Assembly (NCBI RefSeq): GCF_900099685.1
Contig: NZ_FNDW01000007.1
Location: 62,001 to 126,000 of the forward strand
DNA length: 64,000 nt
Source of the DNA: Chryseobacterium taeanense
GTDB lineage: Bacteria; Bacteroidota; Bacteroidia; Flavobacteriales; Weeksellaceae
Direction of reading: 5' to 3'
Made by a program: the position numbers and the translations under genes. Shown in pieces: positions 7,388-26,410 of the stretch (positions are counted from its first letter, which is position 1; each line of letters starts with the position of its first letter). The notes under the pieces were generated by a model. The model saw only the letters and a program-made list of their open reading frames with translations. It made no database searches and was not told the DNA's origin.

Positions 7388-9811
7388 TTAAAAATCAAAT
7401 TTCACGCTCGCACTGTAGCTGCTTCCGGGAAGCGTTCTTGCTCTTATGATTCCGTTTCCTCCGGCGATAGATCCTTCTTCGGCTTCTGTAACTGCTATGG
7501 TATTGAAAATATTATTTGCATTTACACTTACCGAAATATTTTTCATTATCTGATAAGAGATGTAAGGATTTACAATAGCATAACCCGGCATTATCAGTTT
7601 GTTTGAATCCTGTGTATATGCTTTTGTCGCACCGATTAAATAAAACCCTATATTCAATTTATCCATATTGAAATTAGGATTTACAGAATACATGAATTTA
7701 GGAGTTCTTCTTGGCATATTTCCAATAATGGTAGGATCCAGTGCATTTTTGATTTCAGCATGAGTATAGGTTAGTCCTGCTTTTACATCAAAGCTTTTGG
7801 TAATTCTGTAATAACCGTCTAGTTCTACTCCGAGAGACTGGTATTTGTTTTCTGTTTTTCTTTGAGTCGTTGCTTCGTAATTGGCTTCTTTCGTTTCCGC
7901 ATAGAAAAGTGTGGTGTTAAGGAAATATCCTGCGCCTCTTAATTTGTATCCGGCTTCCACCTGATTTACTTTGTTTACTTTTACAGCATCCAGCGCCGGA
8001 TCATCATTATTGGTATAGTTATATCCTGAAAATAAAATTCTGTCTGCCGAAGCACTTCCACCCTGACTTACTCTTGCAAATACTGCATTTTTATTGTTTA
8101 AGGCATAGTTTGCTCCAACTGAATACCCGAAGATTCCGTATCTGTAGTTTACAGGAACGTTGATATTGTCATTTGAGCCAACCATCTGCTCAGGGATATC
8201 GATCACTCCGTTTCCGTTCATGTCGCGGCTGGTGTACGTTACCGTGGCTCCCGAGAAAGTTCCGGTTACTTTTCCGATATCATATCTTGCCCCGGCATCA
8301 ATCGTCAGTTTATCAGTAGCATTGATTTCGATTTGTGCATGAGGCGCTGTAATATCGTATTTCGTATTATAGTCTCTTTTCAGGTTGCCCCAGTCTTTCA
8401 TTCCATAATTCAGCAAACCATTGTCTGTAATGTAGGCACCTGATGTATTTTTTACATCTACCAGTCTTGCATTGCTGTCGCTTACTTCCTGAATGTAATT
8501 ATTCCACATCCATGACATATTAACGTTTTGTGTAGCCTTATACAATCCTGCGTTAAATTTCACATTATTCCATTTTTTACTGATATTAAAATCGTTTACG
8601 AAATTGTTGAAGTTATTAAGCTTTACATTGAAAAGGGCTAATTTCATGTAATAGGCATTCATATCTACAGGTGTATTCGTTCCGGCATAAACCGCGCTTC
8701 CGAAATCGGTAAAGTTGCCAGCATTAAAAAAGTCACTTCCTTTGGTTACACTCGCCGGAAAAGGGGCAATAAACTGACCGCTGTTAGCCGCATAACGAAT
8801 TTTTTCTTCAAACTTCCAGCCTTCGCCCAAATCATAATTAAATTCAGCTCCGATGGTTTTTGAAACAGAATGCATTCCGTCTGAAACGTCACTGTTGAAG
8901 ATATTTCCGTCATTCCCTAAAGTTCTGTCATGCTGAAGATTAATCGTCTGCAAAGCACCGTTAAGAATATTATAATTGGAAAGTGAAGACCATTTTGGGT
9001 CTGCATCTGTTCCGGTGACACTCACAGGCATTGGCATATAGGCTGCCGTTCTGTCGTCCAAAACTTTTGCATAAATCCTGAAACTGCCTTTATCAAATTT
9101 TTTAAGTAAAGAAAGCCTGAACTGTCCTCCATTATTAGAGTTAAATCCTGTTTTTCTTGGTCCGTCCCCGATTCTGTAAAATCCGCCCAGCGCAACGTAA
9201 GTGTTCTCTGCGATCCTGGTTCCGTAATCGAAATCGGTTCTGTAGTTTTTGTAATTAAGCCCCAGTTGCTGCGTGATACTTCCCCCTTCTTTTTCACCTG
9301 TTTTCGTAATAAAATTGATGATCCCTGCCGGAGAGTTACTTGCAAAAACAGATGCAGAACCTCCTCTTAATGCTTCTACTCTTGAGACAAAAGAATCAAA
9401 TCTTGTAAACTGATCCTGTGTACCAAATGCAATATCTCCAAACTGCATTACCGGTAAACCGTCTTCCTGAATTAATAAGTATCTTGAGCCTCCTGCTGAA
9501 ACAGGCACCCCTCTTACCGTAATATTAGAATTTCCTTCACCTCCGGACGATTCTGAACGGATTCCCGGAATGGTTCGGAAAATCTCTGCAGTAGTTCTTG
9601 GCGCAGCATTTTCTATATCTTTCATTTTTAATGTAGAAATAGAAGTACTGGTTTTAATGGATGCTTTGGGATTAGAGTTTCCCGTAATTACCACTTCGTC
9701 GATGGCCTTACCCCTGGTAATGCTATCGTTCTGTATGTTTTGAGAAAACATAAATGCGGCTGTATTCATAGCTCCGAAAACGAGCAATCTGGTGAAAATT
9801 TTTGAGTCCAT
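7388..9811 (-). CDS. TonB-dependent receptor of the sugar locus
   Basis: This 807-residue outer-membrane receptor has a signal peptide (about 1-23, ending MFSQ), the motif AIDEVVITGNS as TonB-box region, a plug domain (about 45-170, TTAEIFRTIPGIRSE...NITVRGVP) and a long beta-barrel ending in KFDF with the terminal Phe typical for Bam-inserted barrels. It lacks the N-terminal carboxypeptidase-regulatory domain of SusC, and no SusD partner lies nearby, so it is a plain receptor and not a SusCD pair. It heads the minus-strand sugar operon and starts about 90 bp from a palindromic LacI-type operator. Its substrate is probably the same sugar used by the locus. Confidence 0.9.
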   Translation of the reverse strand: MDSKIFTRLLVFGAMNTAAFMFSQNIQNDSITRGKAIDEVVITGNSNPKASIKTSTSISTLKMKDIENAAPRTTAEIFRTIPGIRSESSGGEGNSNITVRGVPVSAGGSRYLLIQEDGLPVMQFGDIAFGTQDQFTRFDSFVSRVEALRGGSASVFASNSPAGIINFITKTGEKEGGSITQQLGLNYKNYRTDFDYGTRIAENTYVALGGFYRIGDGPRKTGFNSNNGGQFRLSLLKKFDKGSFRIYAKVLDDRTAAYMPMPVSVTGTDADPKWSSLSNYNILNGALQTINLQHDRTLGNDGNIFNSDVSDGMHSVSKTIGAEFNYDLGEGWKFEEKIRYAANSGQFIAPFPASVTKGSDFFNAGNFTDFGSAVYAGTNTPVDMNAYYMKLALFNVKLNNFNNFVNDFNISKKWNNVKFNAGLYKATQNVNMSWMWNNYIQEVSDSNARLVDVKNTSGAYITDNGLLNYGMKDWGNLKRDYNTKYDITAPHAQIEINATDKLTIDAGARYDIGKVTGTFSGATVTYTSRDMNGNGVIDIPEQMVGSNDNINVPVNYRYGIFGYSVGANYALNNKNAVFARVSQGGSASADRILFSGYNYTNNDDPALDAVKVNKVNQVEAGYKLRGAGYFLNTTLFYAETKEANYEATTQRKTENKYQSLGVELDGYYRITKSFDVKAGLTYTHAEIKNALDPTIIGNMPRRTPKFMYSVNPNFNMDKLNIGFYLIGATKAYTQDSNKLIMPGYAIVNPYISYQIMKNISVSVNANNIFNTIAVTEAEEGSIAGGNGIIRARTLPGSSYSASVKFDF

Positions 9812-16295: not shown

Positions 16296-17324
16296 TTATT
16301 TTTCAAGATCTGCAACAAGATCTTTCCATTCCTGCAATTCGGGGATTCCCGGTTTTCTTTTTCCGAATAGCTGTACGATGAAATCTCCTTCTTTATTGAA
16401 TACTTCAATTGCCGTTACTTCCCCGTCTTCCGTAGGTTTTTTCACGATCCACGCTTCCGCGATTTTTGTTACATCAAGGTGTAAGTTGAAATCCGGATCC
16501 ATCACATTGAACCATTGCTGATGCCACAATGTTTTCTTTACATTTCCTGTGTGGATCTGGATAATCCCTCTGTTCCCCACGAAAATCATGATCGGAAGTT
16601 CTTTTTCAGATGCATCTTCCAAAACGTTTACTACTTTTGAGCTATCGATTTTTTTGGTAAAACCTTCCGGCGCCAGTCTTAATGCCTGTGTTCTGCTTAC
16701 GCCGAATTTTCTGGTCATCATGAAGAAATCGTGGGTATCTTTCAGTGATCTCCATGCATTTTGGAAACCTTCTACATCGATTTCAGCGTCAGATTTTTCT
16801 TCAGTTTTTGGAGCTAATGCTTCAAATTCGAATGATGATTGCTGGTCATCCGCTTTAAAATTTTCAACCAATGCATCAAAAGCAGCTTCATCGCTGTCTT
16901 TGGTTAAGTACATTTTATGTAAAGCCAAACCATCTTTTCCGAAGAACTGTAAGCTTTTTTTATCACCTTCTACCACAGCAAAAGCAAATTTCCAGTGGTT
17001 TAAGAAAATTCTGAGATCGATGTCTTCACCTACGAAAAGCTGTGCGTGCGGACTGCTGAAATCGCCGTTTAAATACGTTCCTTTTCTTTCGTGAACGCAT
17101 TCGTCGTTACGCGTAAGAGCCATCACTTTCCCCAACTTTTCTGCTTCCGTTAAAATATTCTGAAATTCCGGCTTAAGAACCGTTACGCCTTCGCCTACAT
17201 TTGTTGCTAATAATTCTGCTTCACTCACACCAAGTTCTGCAGCTGCATTTCTGATTCTCAAATGCGGGTTTTCAGCTTTAAGAGCTTCCCATTTTTCCTT
17301 AAGATCGTTTACTAATGTGCTCAT
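16296..17324 (-). CDS. hmuS: HmuS/HemS-family cytosolic haem-handling protein
   Basis: This 342-residue protein has the two-lobed HemS/ChuS/HmuS organisation: an N-terminal helix region HLRIRNAAAELGVSEAELLAT, a first core with RKGTYLNG and HAQLFVGEDIDLRIFLNHW, and a second half repeating the pattern (FFMMTRKFGVSRTQALRLAP, FVGNRGIIQIHTG, WFNVMDPDFNLHLD). Such proteins bind and degrade or pass on haem in the cytoplasm after import. It is the last gene of the haem operon (5 bp after the methyltransferase gene) and is followed by a terminator. Confidence 0.93.
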   Translation of the reverse strand: MSTLVNDLKEKWEALKAENPHLRIRNAAAELGVSEAELLATNVGEGVTVLKPEFQNILTEAEKLGKVMALTRNDECVHERKGTYLNGDFSSPHAQLFVGEDIDLRIFLNHWKFAFAVVEGDKKSLQFFGKDGLALHKMYLTKDSDEAAFDALVENFKADDQQSSFEFEALAPKTEEKSDAEIDVEGFQNAWRSLKDTHDFFMMTRKFGVSRTQALRLAPEGFTKKIDSSKVVNVLEDASEKELPIMIFVGNRGIIQIHTGNVKKTLWHQQWFNVMDPDFNLHLDVTKIAEAWIVKKPTEDGEVTAIEVFNKEGDFIVQLFGKRKPGIPELQEWKDLVADLEK

Positions 17325-17329
17325 TATTT

Positions 17330-17980
17330 TTATTTTTTAATGGTTAAAATCGTATAATTTCTTGTTATTGTTTCGTCTCCTGTTTTGCTTTTTACCTGCT
17401 CTTCTCTTTCGGAGATTTTCATTCTTTTAAAATGACTTTGTGAAACCGTTTCTTCCATTTCATCGGTATTATATAAGGTGAAACCGAATTTTGTAAATGG
17501 CAGTTTTTCCATAAAATCTCTTTGTCCAAAGGTTAGAACGAAAATTCCGGTATCTTTTAAAACCCGGTAGATTTCATTTAAATATTCAACAGGATTTTGC
17601 CAGAAATAGACCGTGTTTACGGTGAATATTTTATCGAAAACTTTATCTCCGAAGGGAAGTTTTTCTCCCGCATACAAAACAAAATTGGCTTTATCTTTAA
17701 AAGGTTCATTTAATTTCCTGGCTTCATTATGCATGGTTTCGGAAATGTCAATCCCGGTATATCTTATATGTTGGGCTTTATTCAGAATATTTTCAACATG
17801 ACCTGCATTGCCGTGACCGATTTCCAGAATATTTTCTTTGTCTTCTACTAAAAGTGCGTGGATGCTTTCCAGCGTCATTCCGATGTTGGTATCATTCATC
17901 ATCTCACCGATTTCGATGCCTTTTTCACCTTGTGGATTGGCAAGATGTTGTGCTAACATTTTTACATTTTCTTTGTCCAT
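17330..17980 (-). CDS. class I SAM-dependent methyltransferase in the haem operon
   Basis: This 216-residue protein is a Rossmann-fold methyltransferase: ENILEIGHGNAGHVENIL (motif I, near residue 50-67), YTGIDIS (motif II acidic residue), FDKIFTVNTVYFW (motif IV) and a UbiE/Methyltransf_11-like tail. Its start overlaps the hmuV stop (TAATG), so it is translationally coupled inside the haem transporter operon. The substrate is unknown. A role in haem breakdown product or menaquinone chemistry is conceivable but not shown. Confidence 0.8.
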   Translation of the reverse strand: MDKENVKMLAQHLANPQGEKGIEIGEMMNDTNIGMTLESIHALLVEDKENILEIGHGNAGHVENILNKAQHIRYTGIDISETMHNEARKLNEPFKDKANFVLYAGEKLPFGDKVFDKIFTVNTVYFWQNPVEYLNEIYRVLKDTGIFVLTFGQRDFMEKLPFTKFGFTLYNTDEMEETVSQSHFKRMKISEREEQVKSKTGDETITRNYTILTIKK

Positions 17981-18750
17981 TATCCAAAAATTATCATTGG
18001 GTTATGAGTGATCGGATGGTCACAAACCGTACACGGAAAATTGTATGCTTCAGTAATTTTTTCAGCGGTAAAAACTTCTTCCGGTGTTCCATAAGCCGCT
18101 ACTCTACCTGATTTCATTAACAATATTTTGTCGGCATATTGTGCTGCAAGATTCAGATCATGGAGAACGACTACCGCAGAATTTGCTCTTTGGGTAAAAT
18201 TTTTAATAATCTCCAATGCTTTGTACTGATGTTTAACATCCAGATTATTCAGTGGTTCGTCGAGAAAAATAAGTTTGTGGGCAATTTCATTCTGTAGCTG
18301 CGCCATCACTCTTGAAAGGTGTACGCGCTGTTTTTCTCCTCCTGATAAGGTATTATATTCTCTTCCTTTCAGATGAAACACATCGGTTTCGTACATCATT
18401 TTGTTCATGGCTTCGTGATCTTCTTGTTTTGGCCGTGCATCAAAATATGGGTAACGTCCCATCATGACCACGTCTTTCACTTCAAGAGGAATATCGTTGC
18501 TGTTGTGCTGAGAAAATTTCGCTTTGTGCTTAGACAGCTCTTTCACAGGCCAGTCGCTGATATTTTTATCTTTAAATAAGATCTGCTGTTTCGACTTTAC
18601 TTCATTCGCCAGGATACTCAAAAGGCTGGATTTGCCTGCTCCGTTGGGTCCGACGATGGCTAAAAATTCACCATATTCCAAATGAACATCCACTGAATCC
18701 AGAATATGAAATTCTTTATGCTTATAACTGATCTGATGCGCCTTTATCAT
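17980..18750 (-). CDS. hmuV: HmuV haem ABC transporter ATPase
   Basis: This 256-residue ATPase has Walker A GPNGAGKSS (34-42), a Q-loop region (KFSQHNSND), signature LSGGEKQR (135-142), Walker B KLIFLDEPL (159-167) and switch His in VVLHDLNLAAQ. The family is the FepC/BtuD/HmuV type of iron-chelate and haem importers. It overlaps hmuU by 4 nt and the methyltransferase gene by 1 nt, so it sits inside a tight operon. It would power haem import across the inner membrane. Confidence 0.94.
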   Translation of the reverse strand: MIKAHQISYKHKEFHILDSVDVHLEYGEFLAIVGPNGAGKSSLLSILANEVKSKQQILFKDKNISDWPVKELSKHKAKFSQHNSNDIPLEVKDVVMMGRYPYFDARPKQEDHEAMNKMMYETDVFHLKGREYNTLSGGEKQRVHLSRVMAQLQNEIAHKLIFLDEPLNNLDVKHQYKALEIIKNFTQRANSAVVVLHDLNLAAQYADKILLMKSGRVAAYGTPEEVFTAEKITEAYNFPCTVCDHPITHNPMIIFG

Positions 18751-19790
18751 GACAGTGATTTTTTGAATTTAACTAAAATCGCAATGAAGATCGGCCCTCC
18801 CATGAGTGCTGTCAGAATCCCAATCGGGAGTTCCGAAGGTTCTACAATGCTTCTGCTGAAAGTGTCTGCCGTTAATAACAAAATACTTCCGCAAACGGCT
18901 GATAATGGCAAAATAAAAGCATAATTGGATTTAAATAAAAGCCTTAAAATATAAGGTACAATAAGACCTACAAAACCGATCGTTCCTGAAAATGCTACAC
19001 AACTTCCAACCATCAATGCGGTGATGATGATGATCTGTTTTTTTAATTTCTCTACATTAATTCCTAAATGCTGTGCATCTTTTTCGCCGAGCATCATGGC
19101 ATTTAACGCTTTGCCTTTCGGCAATAAAATGATATAGGAAATGAGTAAGACAACGGCTAAAATGATATTCTTGGTCCATGTTGCGGCTGCTAGGCTTCCT
19201 AAATTCCAGAACGTTAAATCTCTCAATTGATCGTCTTTTGAGATATAAATTAAAAAACCGGTGATGGAAAAACCGATGGCGGTAATGGCAACACCACTGA
19301 GCAACATCATGACTACGTTCGTTTTTCCTCCGCTTGTGGAAATTCTGTACACCAAAAGCATGGATAAAAAAGAACCGATGAATGCAGCAATACCGACCAG
19401 TGAAAACTGTACTGCCTCAGAAAGATACTGTTTAAAATGTCCTCCTAAAACAATCGTAATGGCGGCGAGTAAAGTCGCACCTGATGTAAGTCCTATTAAA
19501 TCCCCCGTTGCTAAAGGGTTTTTAAACAATCCCTGCAGGCTTGTGCCTGAAACGGCCAGCATGCTTCCGATCAAAATAGCCATCACAATTCTGGCTGCGC
19601 GTACATCCCAGACCACATATTTATCGCTCATTGATAAATCAGCATCTCCGTTGAGAACTTTTCCTAAGACTTCAAACGCAGACTGCCCGCCGAAATCATA
19701 AACTCCGGTATTAAGAGACCATACTGCTATGATGGCTAGCAGTATGGCACTTATAGTAACATAAGCGTATAATTTACTTTGTGTTTTCAA
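18747..19790 (-). CDS. hmuU: HmuU haem ABC transporter permease (FecCD family)
   Basis: This 347-residue integral membrane protein has about ten transmembrane helices and the FecCD/BtuC signatures: RAARIVMAILIGSMLAVSGTSLQGLFKNPLATGDLIGLTSGA near the N-terminus (split here over several helices), and GTIGFVGLIVPYILRLLF plus PSELPIGILTALMGGPIFIAIL at the C-terminus. It forms the transmembrane channel with HmuV. Its start lies 17 bp inside the end of hmuT, showing tight coupling. Confidence 0.94.
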   Translation of the reverse strand: MKTQSKLYAYVTISAILLAIIAVWSLNTGVYDFGGQSAFEVLGKVLNGDADLSMSDKYVVWDVRAARIVMAILIGSMLAVSGTSLQGLFKNPLATGDLIGLTSGATLLAAITIVLGGHFKQYLSEAVQFSLVGIAAFIGSFLSMLLVYRISTSGGKTNVVMMLLSGVAITAIGFSITGFLIYISKDDQLRDLTFWNLGSLAAATWTKNIILAVVLLISYIILLPKGKALNAMMLGEKDAQHLGINVEKLKKQIIIITALMVGSCVAFSGTIGFVGLIVPYILRLLFKSNYAFILPLSAVCGSILLLTADTFSRSIVEPSELPIGILTALMGGPIFIAILVKFKKSLS

Positions 19791-20652
19791 TTAAGAGTTT
19801 GTTTAATCCTACAGCAGCTTCTCCCAATCTTGGTCCGAATCCTGAAACCAAGCCTCCGTCCATCGCAATAATTTTTTTGTTTTTACCGGCATTGGTCTGT
19901 GATACGCCCGGCATTTTCAGTGCGCCTTCATTTCCTCCTGCTCCTTGTAATCCGCTTGTGAAGAAAAATAAAACATCAGGATTTGCTTTTACTACAGCTT
20001 CCGGCGTTAAAGGTTTGAAATCTTCAAAATCATTGACTGCATTTTCTCCTCCTGCCAGTTCAATGAGAGAAGCCATTGGTGTATTTTTCCCTGATACCAT
20101 CAGCATATTTCCTCTTGCATAGATGAAAAGTACTTTTGGTTTTTTGGCAATGGGCTGAACCTGTTTTAAGTCAGCATCAATTTTATCATTGAGTTTCTGA
20201 TAATCAGTATTTCCAATTGCTTGTGCTACGTCTGCAATCAGCTTTTTAGTTCCATCTACCGTAAACTCCTGCTTAAATACTTCGGTTTTGATTCCTGAAG
20301 CTTTGATTTTGCCCATTAATTCTGGGTTTATATCTTTATCAGAAGCTAAAATCAAAGTCGGAGACACTGCCATAATTGGCTCAATCGTCATTGATCTTAC
20401 GTGTCCTAAATCTTTCGCGGTAGCTTTCAGAGATTCGGGATAAGTACTGGTAACGTCGGTTCCTACGATTTCTTTTTCGTGACCTAAAGCAGCAACGATT
20501 TCCGTAATCCCTCCATTCAGGGTTACAATTTTATTGTTAGATTTTGGTGTTTCGGCATTTACTTCTGTTTTATTTTCTGTTTTTGCACCTTCTTCTTTTT
20601 TACATGAATATATGGCTACCAGCACAGAAGCGGCAAGAATGAATTTTTTCAT
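19774..20652 (-). CDS. hmuT: HmuT haem-binding lipoprotein
   Basis: This 292-residue substrate-binding protein has a lipobox ending at Cys17 (AIYSC), then a Lys/Glu-rich linker and a class III periplasmic-binding fold (TroA/BtuF type). Landmarks are NGGITEIVAALGHEKEIVGTD, SPTLILASDKDINPE, LFIYARGNMLMVSGKNTPMASLIELAG and a C-terminal FGPRLGEAAVGLNKLL. The lipoprotein would sit on the periplasmic face of the inner membrane and deliver haem to HmuUV. Its gene follows the hmuY-like gene after 113 bp and overlaps hmuU by 17 bp. Confidence 0.92.
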   Translation of the reverse strand: MKKFILAASVLVAIYSCKKEEGAKTENKTEVNAETPKSNNKIVTLNGGITEIVAALGHEKEIVGTDVTSTYPESLKATAKDLGHVRSMTIEPIMAVSPTLILASDKDINPELMGKIKASGIKTEVFKQEFTVDGTKKLIADVAQAIGNTDYQKLNDKIDADLKQVQPIAKKPKVLFIYARGNMLMVSGKNTPMASLIELAGGENAVNDFEDFKPLTPEAVVKANPDVLFFFTSGLQGAGGNEGALKMPGVSQTNAGKNKKIIAMDGGLVSGFGPRLGEAAVGLNKLLIENTK

Positions 20653-20765: not shown

Positions 20766-21851
20766 TTATAAAGGTTTGTATTCAAATTGTGGATAGCCTC
20801 TCTCTCCTGAAGTACTTGTAAGCCTTGTGAATCTTAACTTAAAATAATATCCTTCGGCATCTTTAACTACGTAAAAGCGGTCACCATATACTTCAAGTCC
20901 GTTTACCCCGACAGGGTTTCTCCAGTTGGATCCAATTACGCGCTGGTCGTTGTAAATAAATTTAGACTGATCGATATCAGATGTTTTAAAACTGTTGTAA
21001 GCTTCTACTCCGGAAGATGGTGCAGGAACAACTACTTCATAAGCACCCGCTCCTCCCACATTATTAATAGTCACGAAATCTGCATAAATATAGCTTCCCG
21101 CCCCGCTAATTGTATTGGTGAATACGGTAAAGCAGATATCCCATTTTTTCTTTTCCGGCTGAATAGAAACTTCCTTTTTATTTTTTAAACTGATAAAATT
21201 GTAATTGTAGGCTGTGTTTTTAGTGATGGTAACCTCATAATAATTTTGTCCGTCAATGTCGGCAGATTTTACTTTATAACCTTCCCCGGCTCTTAAGATC
21301 TGTACTTTTTTCCATCCTCTGCTATCACCTCCTGTTGTAACAGAACCAGTAGGAACAGAACCTGAATAGATTTCTTTCCCCATATTTACCAGATAAACTG
21401 CATTGTCGGAATCCGTTGGTTTAATTTCTTCAATAGCTGTGTATCCTGAAGGGAAATCGCCATTGACATCATCTATATAAGCAACATTTGCCGGATTGAA
21501 ATTTGCGACCTGAACCTGCGTTTTTAATGATGCAACCGTGGCCTCCGTCACCTGATTTAAATCCGTAACATTTGGAATTTTTCCTGCGGCCATCATGATG
21601 GATGAATTTAAAACTACTTTAAAAACAGATCCTGAATAGAATGCAAGATCCCAGTCGGTTCTTTTGGTAAGAATTTCCGTTTCAGTACCAAGATCAAACC
21701 ATACCTGATTGGGCTGAGTGGGGCCTCCTACGTTCGGATCAACTCTGGCACCTTCAGAAGGAGCGATAGCAACCGGATCTTCATTATCATTGATGCACGA
21801 CTGTGATATAAAAGATGCTCCTACCAACAGGCAAAAAAGTATTTTTTTCAT
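20766..21851 (-). CDS. HmuY-family haem-binding outer-membrane lipoprotein
   Basis: This 361-residue lipoprotein (lipobox at Cys19, FISQSC) has the HmuY pattern: WFDLGTETE...RTDWDLAFYSG near the start of the mature domain, a central KKWDICFTVFT and a late IGSNWRNP. Porphyromonas HmuY is a surface lipoprotein that captures haem and hands it to the partner TonB receptor. The gene starts only 10 bp downstream of the receptor stop, so the two are co-expressed. It is longer than P. gingivalis HmuY. The same landmarks recur in the T9SS-tailed protein at 25103-26410. Confidence 0.88.
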   Translation of the reverse strand: MKKILFCLLVGASFISQSCINDNEDPVAIAPSEGARVDPNVGGPTQPNQVWFDLGTETEILTKRTDWDLAFYSGSVFKVVLNSSIMMAAGKIPNVTDLNQVTEATVASLKTQVQVANFNPANVAYIDDVNGDFPSGYTAIEEIKPTDSDNAVYLVNMGKEIYSGSVPTGSVTTGGDSRGWKKVQILRAGEGYKVKSADIDGQNYYEVTITKNTAYNYNFISLKNKKEVSIQPEKKKWDICFTVFTNTISGAGSYIYADFVTINNVGGAGAYEVVVPAPSSGVEAYNSFKTSDIDQSKFIYNDQRVIGSNWRNPVGVNGLEVYGDRFYVVKDAEGYYFKLRFTRLTSTSGERGYPQFEYKPL

Positions 21852-21861
21852 TTTAATGTAT

Positions 21862-23997
21862 TTAAAAATTATAATTTAATCTCACGAAATAGCTTCTTCC
21901 ATAAAACAGATTCTGCTGATCGGCAGCGGCATTGTGACTGTTTCCTGATTGAATGGTATTTCTTACACTCGTTACATCAAAGATATTTTTAACTCCTGCC
22001 CCAACTTCAAAATGGTTTTTAAAGAATGGCTGACTTACGGTGAAATTCAACATATTGAAATCTCCGATTTCTCCTAAAATATATTGTCCGGGATCTTTAG
22101 GGTCGTTTTTATCTCCTTCGTGTGTGTATCGTTTCTGTGTTCCTGTATATTTGTAATACAGCGCAAACAAGGTTTTTGATGATGGTAAAGTATAATTGGC
22201 CGCAAGATTAGCTTCAGCATAATAATTATAATCATCCGGCGAAAGAAGATTTCCTGTATCTAAGGACTGTGAAATTCCCATGACGGAAACGCCTGCATTT
22301 AACGTTAAATCTCCTTTTCTTACATTTACTCCTCCTCCGAATAATATGGATTTGTAATTATCTACATTCAGGTAAGTGATTTGTAGTGGACTGTTGTTGA
22401 TGACTACGTCTTCTATTCTGTTCTTTACATCCAGATACATTCCTGAAAGACTGAAATTAAATTTCCAGCCGCTGGAATTGGTTAAAGCATAGTCCCAGAA
22501 TGCTCCGGCAGAATATCCGGTTTCCGGTTTTAGATTTTCATTTCCTCTGATATCGTGATTATTATCTACAACATAGGTATAAAGCTCCTCATAAATCGGG
22601 AATCGGTTGGCAGAACCAAAGACGGTACGAATGTCTGAATTTTCAGAAGTCTTAAAACGTAAAGTCCCGGAATAATTGTACTGCGAGTCGAATTTGTTGC
22701 TCAAGGCTAATCTCACTCCAGGACGGAATGACAGCCAATCGTTGATCTTCCATTCTGCTGATAAGAAATTGGCATAATTGAATATGGTGCGATCAATACT
22801 TTTCCCGTTATTATTGCTTTCAAAAGTGGATGCATCGGCAAAACCTTTTGTTCTGTCTAATTCATAACCCAGCTGAAAATTGATTTTTTCATTGTTTAAA
22901 AAATTGCTGAACATTCCTCTTGAATACAGCACATCCGATTTATAAAAAGTGATTTCAGAATCTCTTGACAATTCTTTCCTGTTGGGAACATCGTAAGTAT
23001 ATCCCTGCGATTTTCGTTCCTGACTCTGATAAGAAAAATCCCCGTTGTAGTTGATTCTTCCCATTTTGGTCTGGATATTAAACTGATGGATCCATCTTGT
23101 GGTATTATAATCTTTATCCTGTGAAGTGTACGTTCTATTGCCACCGCCGAGATAAAGTTCAGTAACTATGGGATTATAATAGTTTATTTTTTCGGTAAGG
23201 AAATTCAGTTTATAAAAGAAACTTGTATTGTTTTTACTGTACCGAATTGTCCCGTTTGTCGTCAACTGATCTTTGGGTTGCCAGTCGTAACCACGCTGTC
23301 CGTCATTGCTTTCACTGAAATATTTGTATCCGTTAAGAGAACCTTTATATCCCTGAAAATCATTATGATTAATATCTGCAACAACCGACCAGTTGTCATT
23401 TATTCTATATCCCAGATTCAATGATTGGATATGACGACCGTTTCCTTTTTTCATCCAGTCATAGTCTTTTCCTACGGTCTCTTCCTGCACAGAAGCTAAT
23501 GCGGTGAATTTTTTACCATAACTTTTTTTGGTAATGATATTAATAACTCCGGCAACGGCATTATTTCCGTATTCAACCCCCATAGAGCCTTTTACCACTT
23601 CAATTCTTTCGATATTATTAACGTTGATTTTTGTAAGATCAACAAGATTTCCCATTCCTTCATCGCTTACCACAGGAATATTATCAATAAGGATCTTTGT
23701 ATAGGCTCCGCTAAGTCCCATAATATTCGCGCTGGAATTTCCGGAGCTTTTGCTCGGTTCTATTAAAATATTAAGATTCTGATTCAGAACTTCGGCAACA
23801 TTAGTTACTGCCATATTTTTAATTTGCTGCGCATCAATCACTTCAACTTTATAGATGGATTTGTTAATGGATTGCTGCATATATTGCCCTGTGATGACAA
23901 CCTCATCGATTTCTTTCTGCTTTAAAGAATCTTTTTCCTGTGCATTCATCCATAAAATAGTGGATAATGATAGAATGGAAAGCACTTTCTTCTTCAT
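21862..23997 (-). CDS. HmuR-like TonB-dependent haem receptor
   Basis: This 711-residue outer-membrane receptor has a signal peptide ending MNAQ, the IDEVVITGQ TonB-box region, a plug domain (about 40-160, TNVAEVLNQNLNILIEP, GSMGVEYGNNAVAGVINIITKK) and a beta-barrel ending LNYNF. It is the first gene of the haem operon with hmuY-, hmuT-, hmuU- and hmuV-like genes behind it, so haem or haemoproteins are the likely substrate. Its promoter (-7 TATATTTG on the minus strand, 24022-24015) shares a Fur-type palindrome with the divergent secreted-protein gene. Confidence 0.92.
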   Translation of the reverse strand: MKKKVLSILSLSTILWMNAQEKDSLKQKEIDEVVITGQYMQQSINKSIYKVEVIDAQQIKNMAVTNVAEVLNQNLNILIEPSKSSGNSSANIMGLSGAYTKILIDNIPVVSDEGMGNLVDLTKINVNNIERIEVVKGSMGVEYGNNAVAGVINIITKKSYGKKFTALASVQEETVGKDYDWMKKGNGRHIQSLNLGYRINDNWSVVADINHNDFQGYKGSLNGYKYFSESNDGQRGYDWQPKDQLTTNGTIRYSKNNTSFFYKLNFLTEKINYYNPIVTELYLGGGNRTYTSQDKDYNTTRWIHQFNIQTKMGRINYNGDFSYQSQERKSQGYTYDVPNRKELSRDSEITFYKSDVLYSRGMFSNFLNNEKINFQLGYELDRTKGFADASTFESNNNGKSIDRTIFNYANFLSAEWKINDWLSFRPGVRLALSNKFDSQYNYSGTLRFKTSENSDIRTVFGSANRFPIYEELYTYVVDNNHDIRGNENLKPETGYSAGAFWDYALTNSSGWKFNFSLSGMYLDVKNRIEDVVINNSPLQITYLNVDNYKSILFGGGVNVRKGDLTLNAGVSVMGISQSLDTGNLLSPDDYNYYAEANLAANYTLPSSKTLFALYYKYTGTQKRYTHEGDKNDPKDPGQYILGEIGDFNMLNFTVSQPFFKNHFEVGAGVKNIFDVTSVRNTIQSGNSHNAAADQQNLFYGRSYFVRLNYNF

Positions 23998-24014
23998 AGG
24001 TGGAAAATTTTCGA

Positions 24015-24082
24015 CAAATATATAACTTTATTTAGAACAGTTAAAAATAAATTATTAATTTTGTGGAATAATTCTAAATAAA
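24015..24082. promoter_or_regulatory. divergent haem promoter with two Fur-type palindromes
   Basis: On the plus strand the -7 element TAATTTTG is at 24056-24063; on the minus strand TATATTTG lies at 24022-24015. Palindrome A, TTTATTTAGAAC-A-GTTAAAAATAAA, covers 24027-24051 (10 of 12 arm positions match) and overlaps the -33 region of both promoters. Palindrome B, centred on GGAATAATTCT (24065-24075), lies just after the plus-strand -7 box. The 7-1-7 layout TTAGAAT-n-ATTCTAA fits a Fur-family box; binding is inferred. Confidence 0.7.
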
Positions 24083-24091
24083 AATAACATT

Positions 24092-24898
24092 ATGAAATTA
24101 AAACTACTTTTAGGGACTTTGATGTTTGCAGCGGTTACCTCCCAAGCACAAGTAGCGACAATTAATGAGAATTTCAACAGTTTTACGCCAGGCCAGGGAC
24201 AATCTGTTTTTCCACAAAATCAGTGGACTGCTATTTACCCTGCACCTGTCGGGAATCCTCCTCCAATGATGAATATAGTAGTGAATAACGCCACCGATAA
24301 TTTTGTGCAGGCGTATTCAGGAGCCAATCAAAATAGTCCGGAATATTTAATTTCACCACAAATTGTTGCTCCCGCAGGAGATAAAACATTAACCTTTAAG
24401 GCAAGAAGAAATACAGGTTCTGCACCAGGATCAGTACAAGTAGGTCTGGCTTCAAGCCCAACTGACATGAGTACGTTTGTAGCTTTGGCAACTGCAACAA
24501 CTTTAACAAGTGATACCTTCCAGACTATTAGCATACCTGTTACTGCTTCAAATTCACAATATATTGTGTTTAAATTTGTAGGGGCATTCGCTCCGCACAC
24601 AGTACTTGAAATTGATGATGTTGTTTACAATCAGGCTTCTAGTCTTGGGATTTCAGATCAGATAAAGGCTAAAGAAGAGATTAAGTTTGCCATCAATGAA
24701 GAAAATACGGCATTACAGTTTGTCACTAAAAAAGATCCTAAAAATATCAGTATTTATTCCGCTGTCGGACAAAAAGTTGCTGAAGGTAAATTATCAGGAA
24801 AATTCTTTGATATCAGTACACTTCATACCGGCATTTATTATATCATCATTGAAACAGCGGAAGGTTCAGCAGTAAAATCAAAATTTATCAAAAGTTAA
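24092..24898 (+). CDS. T9SS-exported choice-of-anchor J domain protein
   Basis: This 268-residue protein has a signal peptide (MKLKLLLGTLMFAAVTSQAQ), then a jelly-roll domain of the choice-of-anchor J/cleaved-adhesin kind (about 22-180: INENFNSFTPGQG, YLISPQIVAPAGDKTLTFKAR, VLEIDDVVY) and a T9SS type A sorting domain (about 195-268: NISIYSAVGQKVAEGKL, LHTGIYYIII, KFIKS). It would be secreted through type IX secretion and attached to the surface. It is divergent from the haem receptor with shared Fur-type boxes, so it is probably induced under iron or haem limitation. Its ligand is unknown. Confidence 0.85.
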   Translation: MKLKLLLGTLMFAAVTSQAQVATINENFNSFTPGQGQSVFPQNQWTAIYPAPVGNPPPMMNIVVNNATDNFVQAYSGANQNSPEYLISPQIVAPAGDKTLTFKARRNTGSAPGSVQVGLASSPTDMSTFVALATATTLTSDTFQTISIPVTASNSQYIVFKFVGAFAPHTVLEIDDVVYNQASSLGISDQIKAKEEIKFAINEENTALQFVTKKDPKNISIYSAVGQKVAEGKLSGKFFDISTLHTGIYYIIIETAEGSAVKSKFIKS

Positions 24899-24927
24899 AT
24901 TTTATCAGACCTCATAATTTTTTAAAG

Positions 24928-24957
24928 CTGACTATGATCTTCATGGTCAGTTTTTTT
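24928..24957 (+). terminator. intrinsic terminator
   Basis: CTGACTATGA (24928-24937) pairs with TCATGGTCAG (24941-24950) with one wobble, followed by seven T. It ends the anchor-J gene and shows the next gene is a separate unit. Confidence 0.88.
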
Positions 24958-25029
24958 GTTTAGCTAAGTCTTAAGATATATATCATCATTTAAACAAAAT
25001 TTAAAATAAAAACACGACAAAAATCATAT

Positions 25030-25088
25030 TTTATTTAGAATAATTAAAAATAATTTATATAGTTTTGTAGAATAACTCTAAATAATAA
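25030..25088 (+). promoter_or_regulatory. promoter with the same pair of Fur-type palindromes
   Basis: Palindrome A' TTTATTTAGAAT-A-ATTAAAAATAAT covers 25030-25054. The -7 element TAGTTTTG is at 25060-25067, and palindrome B' TAGAATAACTCTAAAT starts at 25068. Order and spacing match the promoter at 24027-24082, so the two secreted-protein genes are very likely co-regulated. Confidence 0.7.
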
Positions 25089-25102
25089 TTTACATCAATA
25101 TT

Positions 25103-26410
25103 ATGAAAACAAGATTACTTCTTGCAGCAATGCTTTCAGTAGGTATACAGGAGACTGTTCTGTCGCAGGTTGATGCCAACGGATATACAACGGTAAATAT
25201 GTCTATGGGTTCAAGCTATCAAAATCGGGTATTTTTTGACCTGAGTGCCAACAATATGGTTTCCCAGCCTGCTAATTCATGGGATATAGCTTTCTACAGA
25301 AACTCAAGTATGAATTTCGGAACGAGAATTAATGATGCTCAGAATATCGAAGTGTATCAGGCTTCCAATAATCCAAGCGACTGGAGTAATATCACCACAA
25401 ACAGTGTTGCTTCTTACGGATCGCCTTTGTACAATCTTGACAATACAACAACGATTCAGGAAGGAGCTTTTGAACAAGGCACCTCGACTTACGGATGGGG
25501 AGAATACAATCCCGCAAACCACCACATCGAAGGTAAAGTAATTTTTATCCTGAAATATGTTTCAACCAACACGTATTATAAATTCATGATCGAAGATTAT
25601 TTCGGAGGCTATACTTTTAAATATGCTAAATGGAATACTACCACTTCATCTTGGGATGCTACCGTATCAAAGACCATCGCTAATGGAAGTGATGATGCTT
25701 ATTTTAATTATTTTTCTTTTGCAACCGATGACAAAGTTGCCAACCTTGAGCCTTCAAAATCCAATTGGGACTTTATGTTCACAAGATACTGGACCGATTA
25801 TCCTTATGTAGATCCAAACACAGGACAGCCCGCAACGATGAAATACAGAATGTCGGGAGTAATACAAAATACAAATATCAGTGTAGCAAAAGTTCAGCCC
25901 GAAACACAGGCCACGGCTAATTCAACAATTCCAGCTTCTACGGCTTTTTCAGGAAATATTACAGCAATAGGACACTCTTGGAAACCAACTTCAGGAGTTT
26001 ATAGCGACGTTGTATATTACATTAAGCAAGGTTCAGAATATTACAGAATGTATTTTATTTCCAATGAAGGATCTCAGACCGGGAATATGTATTTTAAATT
26101 CAAAAACATCACTTCAACGTTGGGAACTACTGAAATTGCCGGTAAAAAAGCGTCATTCGGAATTTATCCAAATCCAACGACGGCAGACAGACAGGTGACG
26201 GTTTTATTTGATGTTAAAGAAAAACTCAGTAATAAAGGAAACGTGGAAGTTTATGATCTGTCAGGCAAAAAAGTATATTCTGCTGAATTGACAAACCAAA
26301 CCGGTTTCTATAAACAGGACTTGAATCTTTCTCATCTCTCATCAGGAAATTACTTGGTAAAGATTACTTTCGGAGGAAGCACGGAAACGAAAAAGTTAAT
26401 CGTGAAATAA
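25103..26410 (+). CDS. HmuY-like secreted protein with T9SS sorting domain
   Basis: This 435-residue protein has a signal peptide (ending VLSQ) and no lipobox. Residues about 35-340 follow the same landmarks as the HmuY-like lipoprotein of this locus: VFFDLSANN...SWDIAFYRNS against VWFDLGTET...DWDLAFYSGS, SNWDFMFTRYW against KKWDICFTVFT, and IGHSWKPT against IGSNWRNP. The last 75 residues are a T9SS type A sorting domain (FGIYPNPTTADRQV, VEVYDLSGKKVYS, LSSGNYLVKI, KKLIVK). It is therefore probably a secreted or surface-attached haemophore. It is monocistronic, with Fur-type boxes in its promoter. Confidence 0.82.
   Translation: MKTRLLLAAMLSVGIQETVLSQVDANGYTTVNMSMGSSYQNRVFFDLSANNMVSQPANSWDIAFYRNSSMNFGTRINDAQNIEVYQASNNPSDWSNITTNSVASYGSPLYNLDNTTTIQEGAFEQGTSTYGWGEYNPANHHIEGKVIFILKYVSTNTYYKFMIEDYFGGYTFKYAKWNTTTSSWDATVSKTIANGSDDAYFNYFSFATDDKVANLEPSKSNWDFMFTRYWTDYPYVDPNTGQPATMKYRMSGVIQNTNISVAKVQPETQATANSTIPASTAFSGNITAIGHSWKPTSGVYSDVVYYIKQGSEYYRMYFISNEGSQTGNMYFKFKNITSTLGTTEIAGKKASFGIYPNPTTADRQVTVLFDVKEKLSNKGNVEVYDLSGKKVYSAELTNQTGFYKQDLNLSHLSSGNYLVKITFGGSTETKKLIVK

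Follow-up and report, generated by a model that had tools for sequence, protein, structure and literature searches.

Why would a haem-uptake locus that encodes a lipid-anchored HmuY protein also encode a second HmuY-like protein bearing the sorting tail of another export machine, and how would haem pass from such a protein to the cell? This question is raised by a 64,000-nucleotide stretch of DNA from Chryseobacterium taeanense (NZ_FNDW01000007.1, positions 62,001-126,000), which we call the window and in whose positions all coordinates below are given. Its gene at 25103-26410 (forward strand) encodes a 435-residue HmuY homologue, named here T9SS-HmuY, which we recognised from its open reading frame (ORF), its tail of the type IX secretion system (T9SS), its homology, its predicted fold and its lack of cysteine. 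On the reverse strand lie the genes of a HmuY lipoprotein (20766-21851; 361 residues, Cys at residue 19, PF14064 at 97.4 bits) and of an HmuR-like TonB-dependent receptor (21862-23997; 711 residues, with the Pfam Plug and barrel domains); between the receptor gene and that of T9SS-HmuY sits the gene of a choice-of-anchor J protein with a T9SS tail (24092-24898, forward strand; 268 residues), hereafter anchor-J. An earlier note on this DNA had described T9SS-HmuY, the lipoprotein and anchor-J, and the three genes were found exactly where it had put them.

HmuY is a model haemophore-like protein of the Bacteroidota and has been studied chiefly as a surface lipoprotein. In our opinion T9SS-HmuY is probably a second haemophore of the HmuY superfamily, one that is exported and controlled by Fur and that would capture haem beyond the reach of the lipoprotein.

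Homology, export signals and operators of T9SS-HmuY

The two window proteins present the same landmarks in the same order: FFDL..NSWDIAFY, NWDFMFT and IGHSW in T9SS-HmuY, WFDL..TDWDLAFY, KWDICFT and IGSNW in the lipoprotein. The earlier note had pointed this out, and direct reading, BLASTP (22% over 214 residues, E 2e-4 for a single comparison) and profile-profile alignment all bear it out. In the last of these, a profile of 24 T9SS-type cores was aligned with a profile of 21 HmuY lipoproteins (each including one Flavobacterium and one Lentimicrobium row, L056 and L058; L and G numbers are our handles) with 99.3% probability and E 2.9e-20 over 278 columns, the landmarks being in register. A search with the single query reaches HmuY lipoprotein genes a few kilobases away in relatives, for instance at E 9.5e-7 in G041, where the match was confirmed as a lipoprotein (L147). 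Among 33 T9SS-type proteins picked by core score and length and aligned together, 20 match PF14064 at E 0.01 and all match Por_Secre_tail. A broader core profile (33 sequences, including nine permuted proteins, see below) was compared with all PDB sequences: the best match is 8b6a, the Bacteroides fragilis lipoprotein BfrB (E 2.4e-6), followed by the HmuY entries 3h8t/6ewm (E 4.8e-6) and, in third place, by a colicin (E 0.024), these E-values being sums over two stretches, of which the best single ones reach 0.003 (8b6a) and 0.034 (3h8t).

The AlphaFold model of T9SS-HmuY (mean confidence pLDDT 80.5, pTM 0.77), built like that of the lipoprotein on a small number of sequences (24 and 21 respectively), points the same way. 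The first eight VIA-align rows for this model are 3u22, 4gbs, 6r2h, 6eu8, 8b61, 3h8t, 8b6a and 6ewm, with Z of 9.0, 7.9, 7.7, 7.2, 6.6, 6.5, 6.4 and 5.8 in this order; a DUF4466 protein comes ninth (Z 5.6, tied with the eighth), and the tenth and eleventh rows have 5.0 and 3.4. For the lipoprotein model these eight entries again come first, with Z from 15.0 (HmuY-haem, 3h8t) to 12.1 and DUF4466 next at 9.1. Four of the eight are titled HmuY, and we take the PinO, BfrB, BfrC and BF2707 entries to be of the same family. The earlier note had asked for a comparison of this fold with that of HmuY, and the predicted fold of residues 22-345 turns out to be related to it. T9SS-HmuY is thus a remote HmuY homologue, a member of the superfamily by homology, and it is predicted to have the HmuY fold.

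The HmuY-like domain of T9SS-HmuY, delimited by profile and fold comparisons, is long (residues 22-345; 25166-26137). The HmuY chains of the PDB align mostly with the C-terminal half of T9SS-HmuY and of the lipoprotein, and the WDFMF motif at residue 222 lies within this half, which matches the single HmuY domain of those chains. About 150 additional N-terminal residues are common to both forms (N-terminal half against N-terminal half: 96.9% probability, E 1.7e-10). A tandem duplication of one HmuY domain was considered: half against half, the probability is only 17.3% for the T9SS form (in register, 138 columns) and 12.5% for the lipoprotein, while the N-terminal half of the former aligns with the C-terminal half of the latter at 54.9%. 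We speak therefore of a long HmuY rather than of a tandem one.

The T9SS type A sorting domain (residues 354-434; 26162-26404) scores 57.9 bits with PF18962 and, over residues 354-435, 58.6 bits with TIGR04183, for an NCBIfam cut-off of 23; it is the top score of the 57 such tails of the genome (63.3 bits in the genome search). The protein contains no cysteine and hence has no lipobox; its signal peptide (residues 1-22; 25103-25168) was read from the sequence with a presumed cleavage site, and Q22 occupies an invariant column of the 33-row alignment. The lipid anchor of the canonical HmuY haemophore is lacking, and the T9SS tail stands in its place. SprA, the one part of the translocon that we looked for, is encoded in the genome (SprA_N, 514.2 bits), with matches in 0 of 14 control genomes. 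The replacement of a lipid anchor by a T9SS tail, proposed in the earlier note, is thus borne out by the tail scores, SprA and the zero cysteine count. Among homologues, the lipoprotein cysteine column is conserved in 45 of 45 lipoproteins; by our own ORF calls, 10 of 95 T9SS-type proteins have a cysteine within the first 40 residues, and a single one of these ten (L091) fits a loose lipobox pattern.

Three predicted Fur-type operators accompany these genes, all of them 23-bp near-palindromes which match the Riemerella anatipestifer Fur box ATTTAGAATTATTCTAAAT. One lies upstream of the T9SS-HmuY gene (25031-25053), another (25063-25085) overlaps the -7-like box of this gene, TAGTTTTG (25061-25068, by eye), and the third (24059-24081) overlaps the -7-like box of anchor-J, TAATTTTG (24056-24063, by eye), in a region common with the divergent HmuR gene; a weaker copy can be discerned, by eye only, around 24028-24050. 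With at most 3 mismatches the window contains 6 matches (the 3 sites on both strands), 0.02 being expected. Of the near relatives examined, all 31 have at least one box with at most 4 mismatches in the 150 bp upstream (shuffled sequences would give 0.70; these relatives are not independent, and the upstream regions of L004-L032 were left out), as do 9 of 29 distant ones (0.27 expected). Over the whole genome we obtained 12 distinct sites (23 strand matches, versus 3 for the reversed pattern): three are at this locus, and L123, L126, L127 and L128 precede genes of TonB-dependent or SusC-like receptors, these genes being named by eye only, with L119, L120, L124, L125 and L129 unassigned. In R. 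anatipestifer, Fur binds selected promoters including that of hmuR in electrophoretic mobility shift assays, and the list of Fur-regulated genes includes hmuY, hmuR and the gene after them (PMC5609570; statements on cited papers refer to the excerpts available to us).

Recurrence of the architecture and known counterparts

We looked for T9SS-HmuY in other genomes, as the earlier note had suggested. It is present in 57 of 70 genomes of the genus, our own included (in G062 it is split over two frames); five of the others have weak matches only and eight have none. In the order, 128 of 393 sampled genomes have some match, lipoproteins counted. Strong T9SS-type matches (E 6.6e-38 or better) occur in 28 genomes of the order outside the family, and we examined all 28 regions: T9SS-HmuY stands with an HmuR-like receptor and a lipoprotein HmuY in 18 (the receptor of L092 being 4.3 kb off), with a receptor in 8, of which 5 end at a contig end, and alone in 2, one of them again ending at a contig end. 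A phylum-wide search including the tail was swamped by unrelated T9SS tails and was rerun with the core alone: 18 of 392 genomes match in a frame of at least 420 residues, 11 of them outside the order, from six families. All 11 of these proteins carry the tail according to our own tail profile (22-61 bits); a Pfam tail scan of two of them placed one above the cut-off and one just below. Their regions contain all three genes in 4 cases, T9SS-HmuY and receptor in 3, T9SS-HmuY and lipoprotein in 1, and T9SS-HmuY alone in 3. The order and phylum searches scored the 4-5 best candidates per genome, so absences from them are weak. The architecture is thus met repeatedly across the Bacteroidota, in many cases accompanied by a TonB receptor and an HmuY lipoprotein. 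From this it would seem that numerous members of the phylum have an HmuY at the surface and another exported by a different machine. A 2.0 Mb genome (G424) has three T9SS-HmuY paralogues (L110, L111, L112), one of them beside HmuR and a lipoprotein; the receptor adjoining L112 has a weak HmuR score.

In one family (f7, 15 genomes with regions examined) the order of the protein itself is altered. Nine of its T9SS-HmuY proteins (L095, L097, L098, L101-L105 and L113) begin with model positions 71-306, continue with 10-82 and end with the tail, so that the first strand block, which bears the WDIAF motif, now follows the remainder of the domain. Five (L087, L090, L091, L093, L094) have the normal order, and L099 ends at a contig end. 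With a profile built without permuted members, both pieces are significant, the first at 1.6e-50 to 4.3e-44 and the second at 4.7e-12 to 6.6e-9 (L105 was assigned from its coordinates). The GAF motif, where found, lies at 42-74 in the permuted proteins versus 106-123 in the normal ones (the called starts of L056 and L058 are longer and shift this position), and a WD-type motif lies at 283-315 in 8 of the 9. A lipoprotein was found at the same locus for 7 of the 9, in normal order every time. By the order of their sequence the nine proteins are circular permutants, and the lipoproteins found beside them are not. A single literature search on this point found no paper on a circular permutation of HmuY.

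The HmuY of Flavobacterium columnare (C6N29_01035) is described with pfam14064 and Por_Secre_tail and is called T9SS-secreted, with reference to Thunes et al. 2022 (PMC9618737). By this description it resembles the window protein in combining an HmuY domain with a T9SS tail; its HmuY domain is detected by pfam14064, unlike that of T9SS-HmuY; the excerpt mentions neither a partner lipoprotein HmuY nor an adjacent receptor. The novelty which the earlier note saw in a HmuY other than a lipoprotein therefore does not stand by itself.

The RhuH-RhuR-RhuA locus of R. anatipestifer has a similar layout, with the gene of a secreted haemophore divergent from that of a haem receptor, an outer-membrane haem-binding protein and a Fur-controlled bidirectional promoter (PMC11967795). 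There the divergent position is held by RhuH, here by anchor-J and T9SS-HmuY; the fold of RhuH (8XJC) is reported to be unlike HmuY, and neither T9SS nor type IX appears in the main text of that paper. The structure 8XJC is not among the PDB matches listed in our searches, its presence in those libraries being unconfirmed. The idea that T9SS-HmuY is the local RhuH finds no support in these lists.

The HmuY-HmuR system of Porphyromonas gingivalis resembles ours in its fold (3h8t and 6ewm are among the top eight entries) and in the neighbouring TonB-dependent receptor; its HmuY has one short domain (191 residues in the PDB chain), compared with the long T9SS-HmuY. We know of no T9SS tail on this protein. 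It is anchored at the surface, then released by proteolysis, and binds haem with His134/His166 (PMC11967795). In Flavobacterium psychrophilum, HfpY is an HmuY-family protein co-transcribed with the haem receptor HfpR under iron scarcity; it binds haem with less than 26% identity to other HmuY proteins, and the text available describes one hemophore at the locus (PMC9331221). We infer that HfpY corresponds to the receptor-adjacent HmuY rather than to the T9SS copy. In Prevotella intermedia, as here, hmuY and a T9SS type A gene are adjacent, and iron depletion induces them 116- and 104-fold; the excerpt does not call this neighbour an HmuY (PMC10434189). A figure legend elsewhere marks T9SS type A genes on a map of the hmu region (PMC12106395). 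In the literature searched, which included few subscription journals, we found no description of a lipoprotein HmuY and a T9SS-HmuY as a pair, or of HmuR and lipoprotein alleles that switch together. New in this work are the recurrent pairing, the uncoupling of T9SS-HmuY from the receptor allele (see below) and the permuted form; the architecture was known already in one species.

Coupling of alleles and the possible path of haem

How T9SS-HmuY relates to the receptor was studied in 41 loci of Chryseobacterium and Epilithonimonas having HmuR, the lipoprotein, the binding protein and the permease. Twenty of them were added, 17 picked for a missing T9SS-HmuY, L148 and L149 for a suspected missing anchor-J and L147 for its lipoprotein match; because the loci were chosen, shares within this set are not frequencies. 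The distances of HmuR and of the lipoprotein are strongly correlated (r 0.85, partial r 0.85), with r of 0.05-0.16 between either of them and the binding protein, permease and ATPase, and of 0.15 and 0.25 with HemS (17 loci). When clustered with thresholds chosen by us, HmuR falls into classes of 10, 6 and 25 loci and the lipoprotein into two of 10 and 31; for both proteins the ten-member class, class 1, is made up of identical loci (concordance 41/41). Traced on a quickly built tree of flanking genes, this class changes 8 times or more (maximum possible 10) and once on the lipoprotein tree; on the T9SS-HmuY tree (25 loci) it changes 6 times, the maximum with 6 class-1 loci. T9SS-HmuY itself tracks the flanking genes (r 0.63 and 0.54) more than HmuR (Mantel r 0.27, p 0.011) or the lipoprotein (0.32, p 0.006). 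Between L148 and L149, for instance, the flanks diverge by 3-6% and T9SS-HmuY by 13%, compared with 43% for HmuR and 54% for the lipoprotein. HmuR and the lipoprotein are exchanged jointly between close species, as though diversifying selection acted on them. We also observed that in three pairs of loci (L148/L149, L050/L052 and L040/L047) HmuR and the lipoprotein are 41-54% apart, the binding protein, permease, ATPase and TauE-like genes 2-6%.

We interpret HmuR and its lipoprotein as matched partners that travel together. Since this pair is exchanged together while T9SS-HmuY follows the flanks, the latter is probably independent of the receptor allele, and the pattern argues for a hand-over via haem or the lipoprotein. 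The sequence of events could then be as follows. When iron is short, Fur would leave the T9SS-HmuY promoter; the protein would be made, cross the outer membrane via the T9SS and be released or attached to the surface; there it would pick up haem, free or bound in haemoproteins, at places which the lipid-anchored HmuY does not reach, and this haem would then go to the lipoprotein and HmuR for import. That the hand-over proceeds via haem or the lipoprotein, with no specific docking to HmuR, is the step we can support least. Of the earlier proposal that the secreted proteins feed the HmuR-like receptor, the haem-uptake setting stands, with HmuR, the HmuY lipoprotein, an importer, HemS and Fur-type operators at the locus; direct feeding is doubtful, as HmuR and the lipoprotein switch alleles together and T9SS-HmuY hardly follows.

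Several observations weigh against the exported haemophore. In a Pfam scan the window protein goes unmatched by PF14064, even at E 1, and it is not a member of that family on its own score; the Pfam and NCBIfam scans returned the tail and rows at chance level, with no HmuY model. Foldseek against the PDB ranks an HmuY-type entry, PinO, first, with E 6.7e-3 and TM of 0.24-0.40 (we did not use this result alone). HmuY proteins bind haem with His134/His166 or with pairs of Met (PMC9331221, PMC11967795), the canonical ligand sets being His/His, His/Met or Met/Met, and no counterpart of such a pair could be recognised in our alignments of the C-terminal half of T9SS-HmuY; His140, conserved in 91 of 95 T9SS-type proteins, lies in the N-terminal half, beyond the stretch which aligns with classical HmuY. 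The His of IGHSW was considered as a family-wide ligand and rejected, the consensus of the broad set being IGYDWK. T9SS-HmuY was not found in 13 of the 70 genomes of the genus, and is dispensable for this reason; traced over the flank tree of our selected loci, its presence changes state 10 times. It keeps some linkage with HmuR and the lipoprotein, as the Mantel values above show. Finally, deletion of hmuY in F. columnare left wild-type growth in low iron and virulence (PMC9618737).

Some of these points lend themselves to other explanations. T9SS-HmuY could dock directly on HmuR, as supposed for the lipoprotein, the two HmuY proteins being exchangeable lids of one receptor; its gene belongs to the same locus and adjoins the HmuR promoter region, the two HmuY proteins are homologous over their whole length, and the three genes cluster in most of the distant regions of the order. 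The joint class switching of HmuR and lipoprotein in all 41 loci, the closer tracking of the flanks by T9SS-HmuY and the repeated class changes on its tree make such docking unlikely in our eyes, with the reservation that a conserved contact surface on HmuR would yield the same coupling pattern. Equally improbable, we think, is that the HmuY fold has lost its haem ligands and now binds a haemoprotein, another porphyrin or a metal complex: the ligand pair is not recognisable where it should align, and the B. fragilis HmuY 'Bf-2' is described, in the excerpt available, as having no iron-coordinating residues, but HfpY binds haem at its low identity, His140 is conserved, and the neighbours are haem-uptake genes. 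We infer that T9SS-HmuY binds haem. That it is a T9SS surface protein of the iron stimulon, for example an adhesin, with no part in haem supply, has some appeal given the iron-regulated T9SS-tailed proteins of P. gingivalis (PMC10434189) and the F. columnare gene with its lack of a growth phenotype; with the HmuY homology, the predicted fold and the recurring position beside HmuR and HmuY across many families, it seems very unlikely.

The earlier note had made T9SS-HmuY and anchor-J the two parts of one capture system. The genes are adjacent, both products have T9SS tails and the promoters carry similar Fur-type operators. The anchor-J domain scores 53.4 bits with NF038128 (cut-off 30), its tail being weaker (34.4 bits with NCBIfam, above cut-off; 25.3 with Pfam, just below the cut-off of 27), and the best PDB sequence for its profile is an adhesin domain of Lys-gingipain (Kgp), 3m1h, at E 3.5e-4, a distant relation concerning the N-terminal domain. 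Kgp-type adhesin domains bind haemoglobin in P. gingivalis. Against a joint unit speak the 17 of 17 loci picked for a missing T9SS-HmuY, which retain HmuR, the lipoprotein and anchor-J, and the two loci L148 and L149, where T9SS-HmuY is present with no anchor-J at the locus; anchor-J is moreover hypervariable (mean distance 0.49) and follows T9SS-HmuY weakly (r 0.40). An obligate two-part system is thus unsupported, each protein occurring at the locus without the other, and a single capture unit appears distinctly improbable; anchor-J is perhaps a separate accessory, an adhesin. It was found in 39 of the 41 loci (L144 ends shortly past its anchor-J gene). Between L050 and L052 it differs by 47% despite flanks 2-4% apart; its variation is mostly in the N-terminal domain, the tail being better conserved in the alignment.

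If the exported haemophore is real, haem scavenging in the Bacteroidota has a long-range arm overlooked by single-gene annotation, and a conserved second HmuY exported by the T9SS can escape Pfam. One may go further and imagine, tentatively, a two-tier haem relay across the phylum, made of a receptor-lipoprotein pair and of an allele-indifferent exported HmuY that would provide haem to any such pair at hand: the pair would swap its alleles jointly, perhaps in response to attacks that use the receptor, and the exported form would be structurally free enough for one lineage to carry a natural circular permutant. We regard this joint claim as possible rather than probable. With paired switching of receptor and lipoprotein, and an exported copy nearly unlinked from them, the two natural receptor classes make haem hand-over testable, and the permuted proteins could serve as a natural experiment on which elements of the HmuY fold are indispensable.

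The remainder of the locus

The reverse-strand genes continue beyond the lipoprotein with a haem/iron ABC (ATP-binding cassette) importer: its periplasmic binding lipoprotein (19774-20652; PF01497, 106.3 bits), its membrane permease (18747-19790) and its ATPase (17980-18750), the last two named from their translations and conserved as neighbours in relatives. A putative methyltransferase of the same operon (17330-17980, named from its translation) and a HemS/ChuX-type haemin-degrading protein (16296-17324; PF05171, 256.2 bits) follow, also on the reverse strand. In one genome (G063, locus L132) the importer genes between lipoprotein and HemS are missing, HmuR, the HmuY lipoprotein and HemS being retained.

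One of the genome-wide Fur-box-like sites (L120, G000:C29:444764) lies between a gene resembling DtxR-type regulators and a convergent gene; this gap holds no listed ORF of at least 90 residues, and a small gene or RNA is possible there. The HmuR-like receptor of the locus scores 60.3 bits with the TonB-hemin subfamily model, far below the cut-off of 316.85. A second, distant HmuR-like TonB-dependent receptor is encoded in the window at 7388-9811 (807 residues, 27% identity to HmuR).

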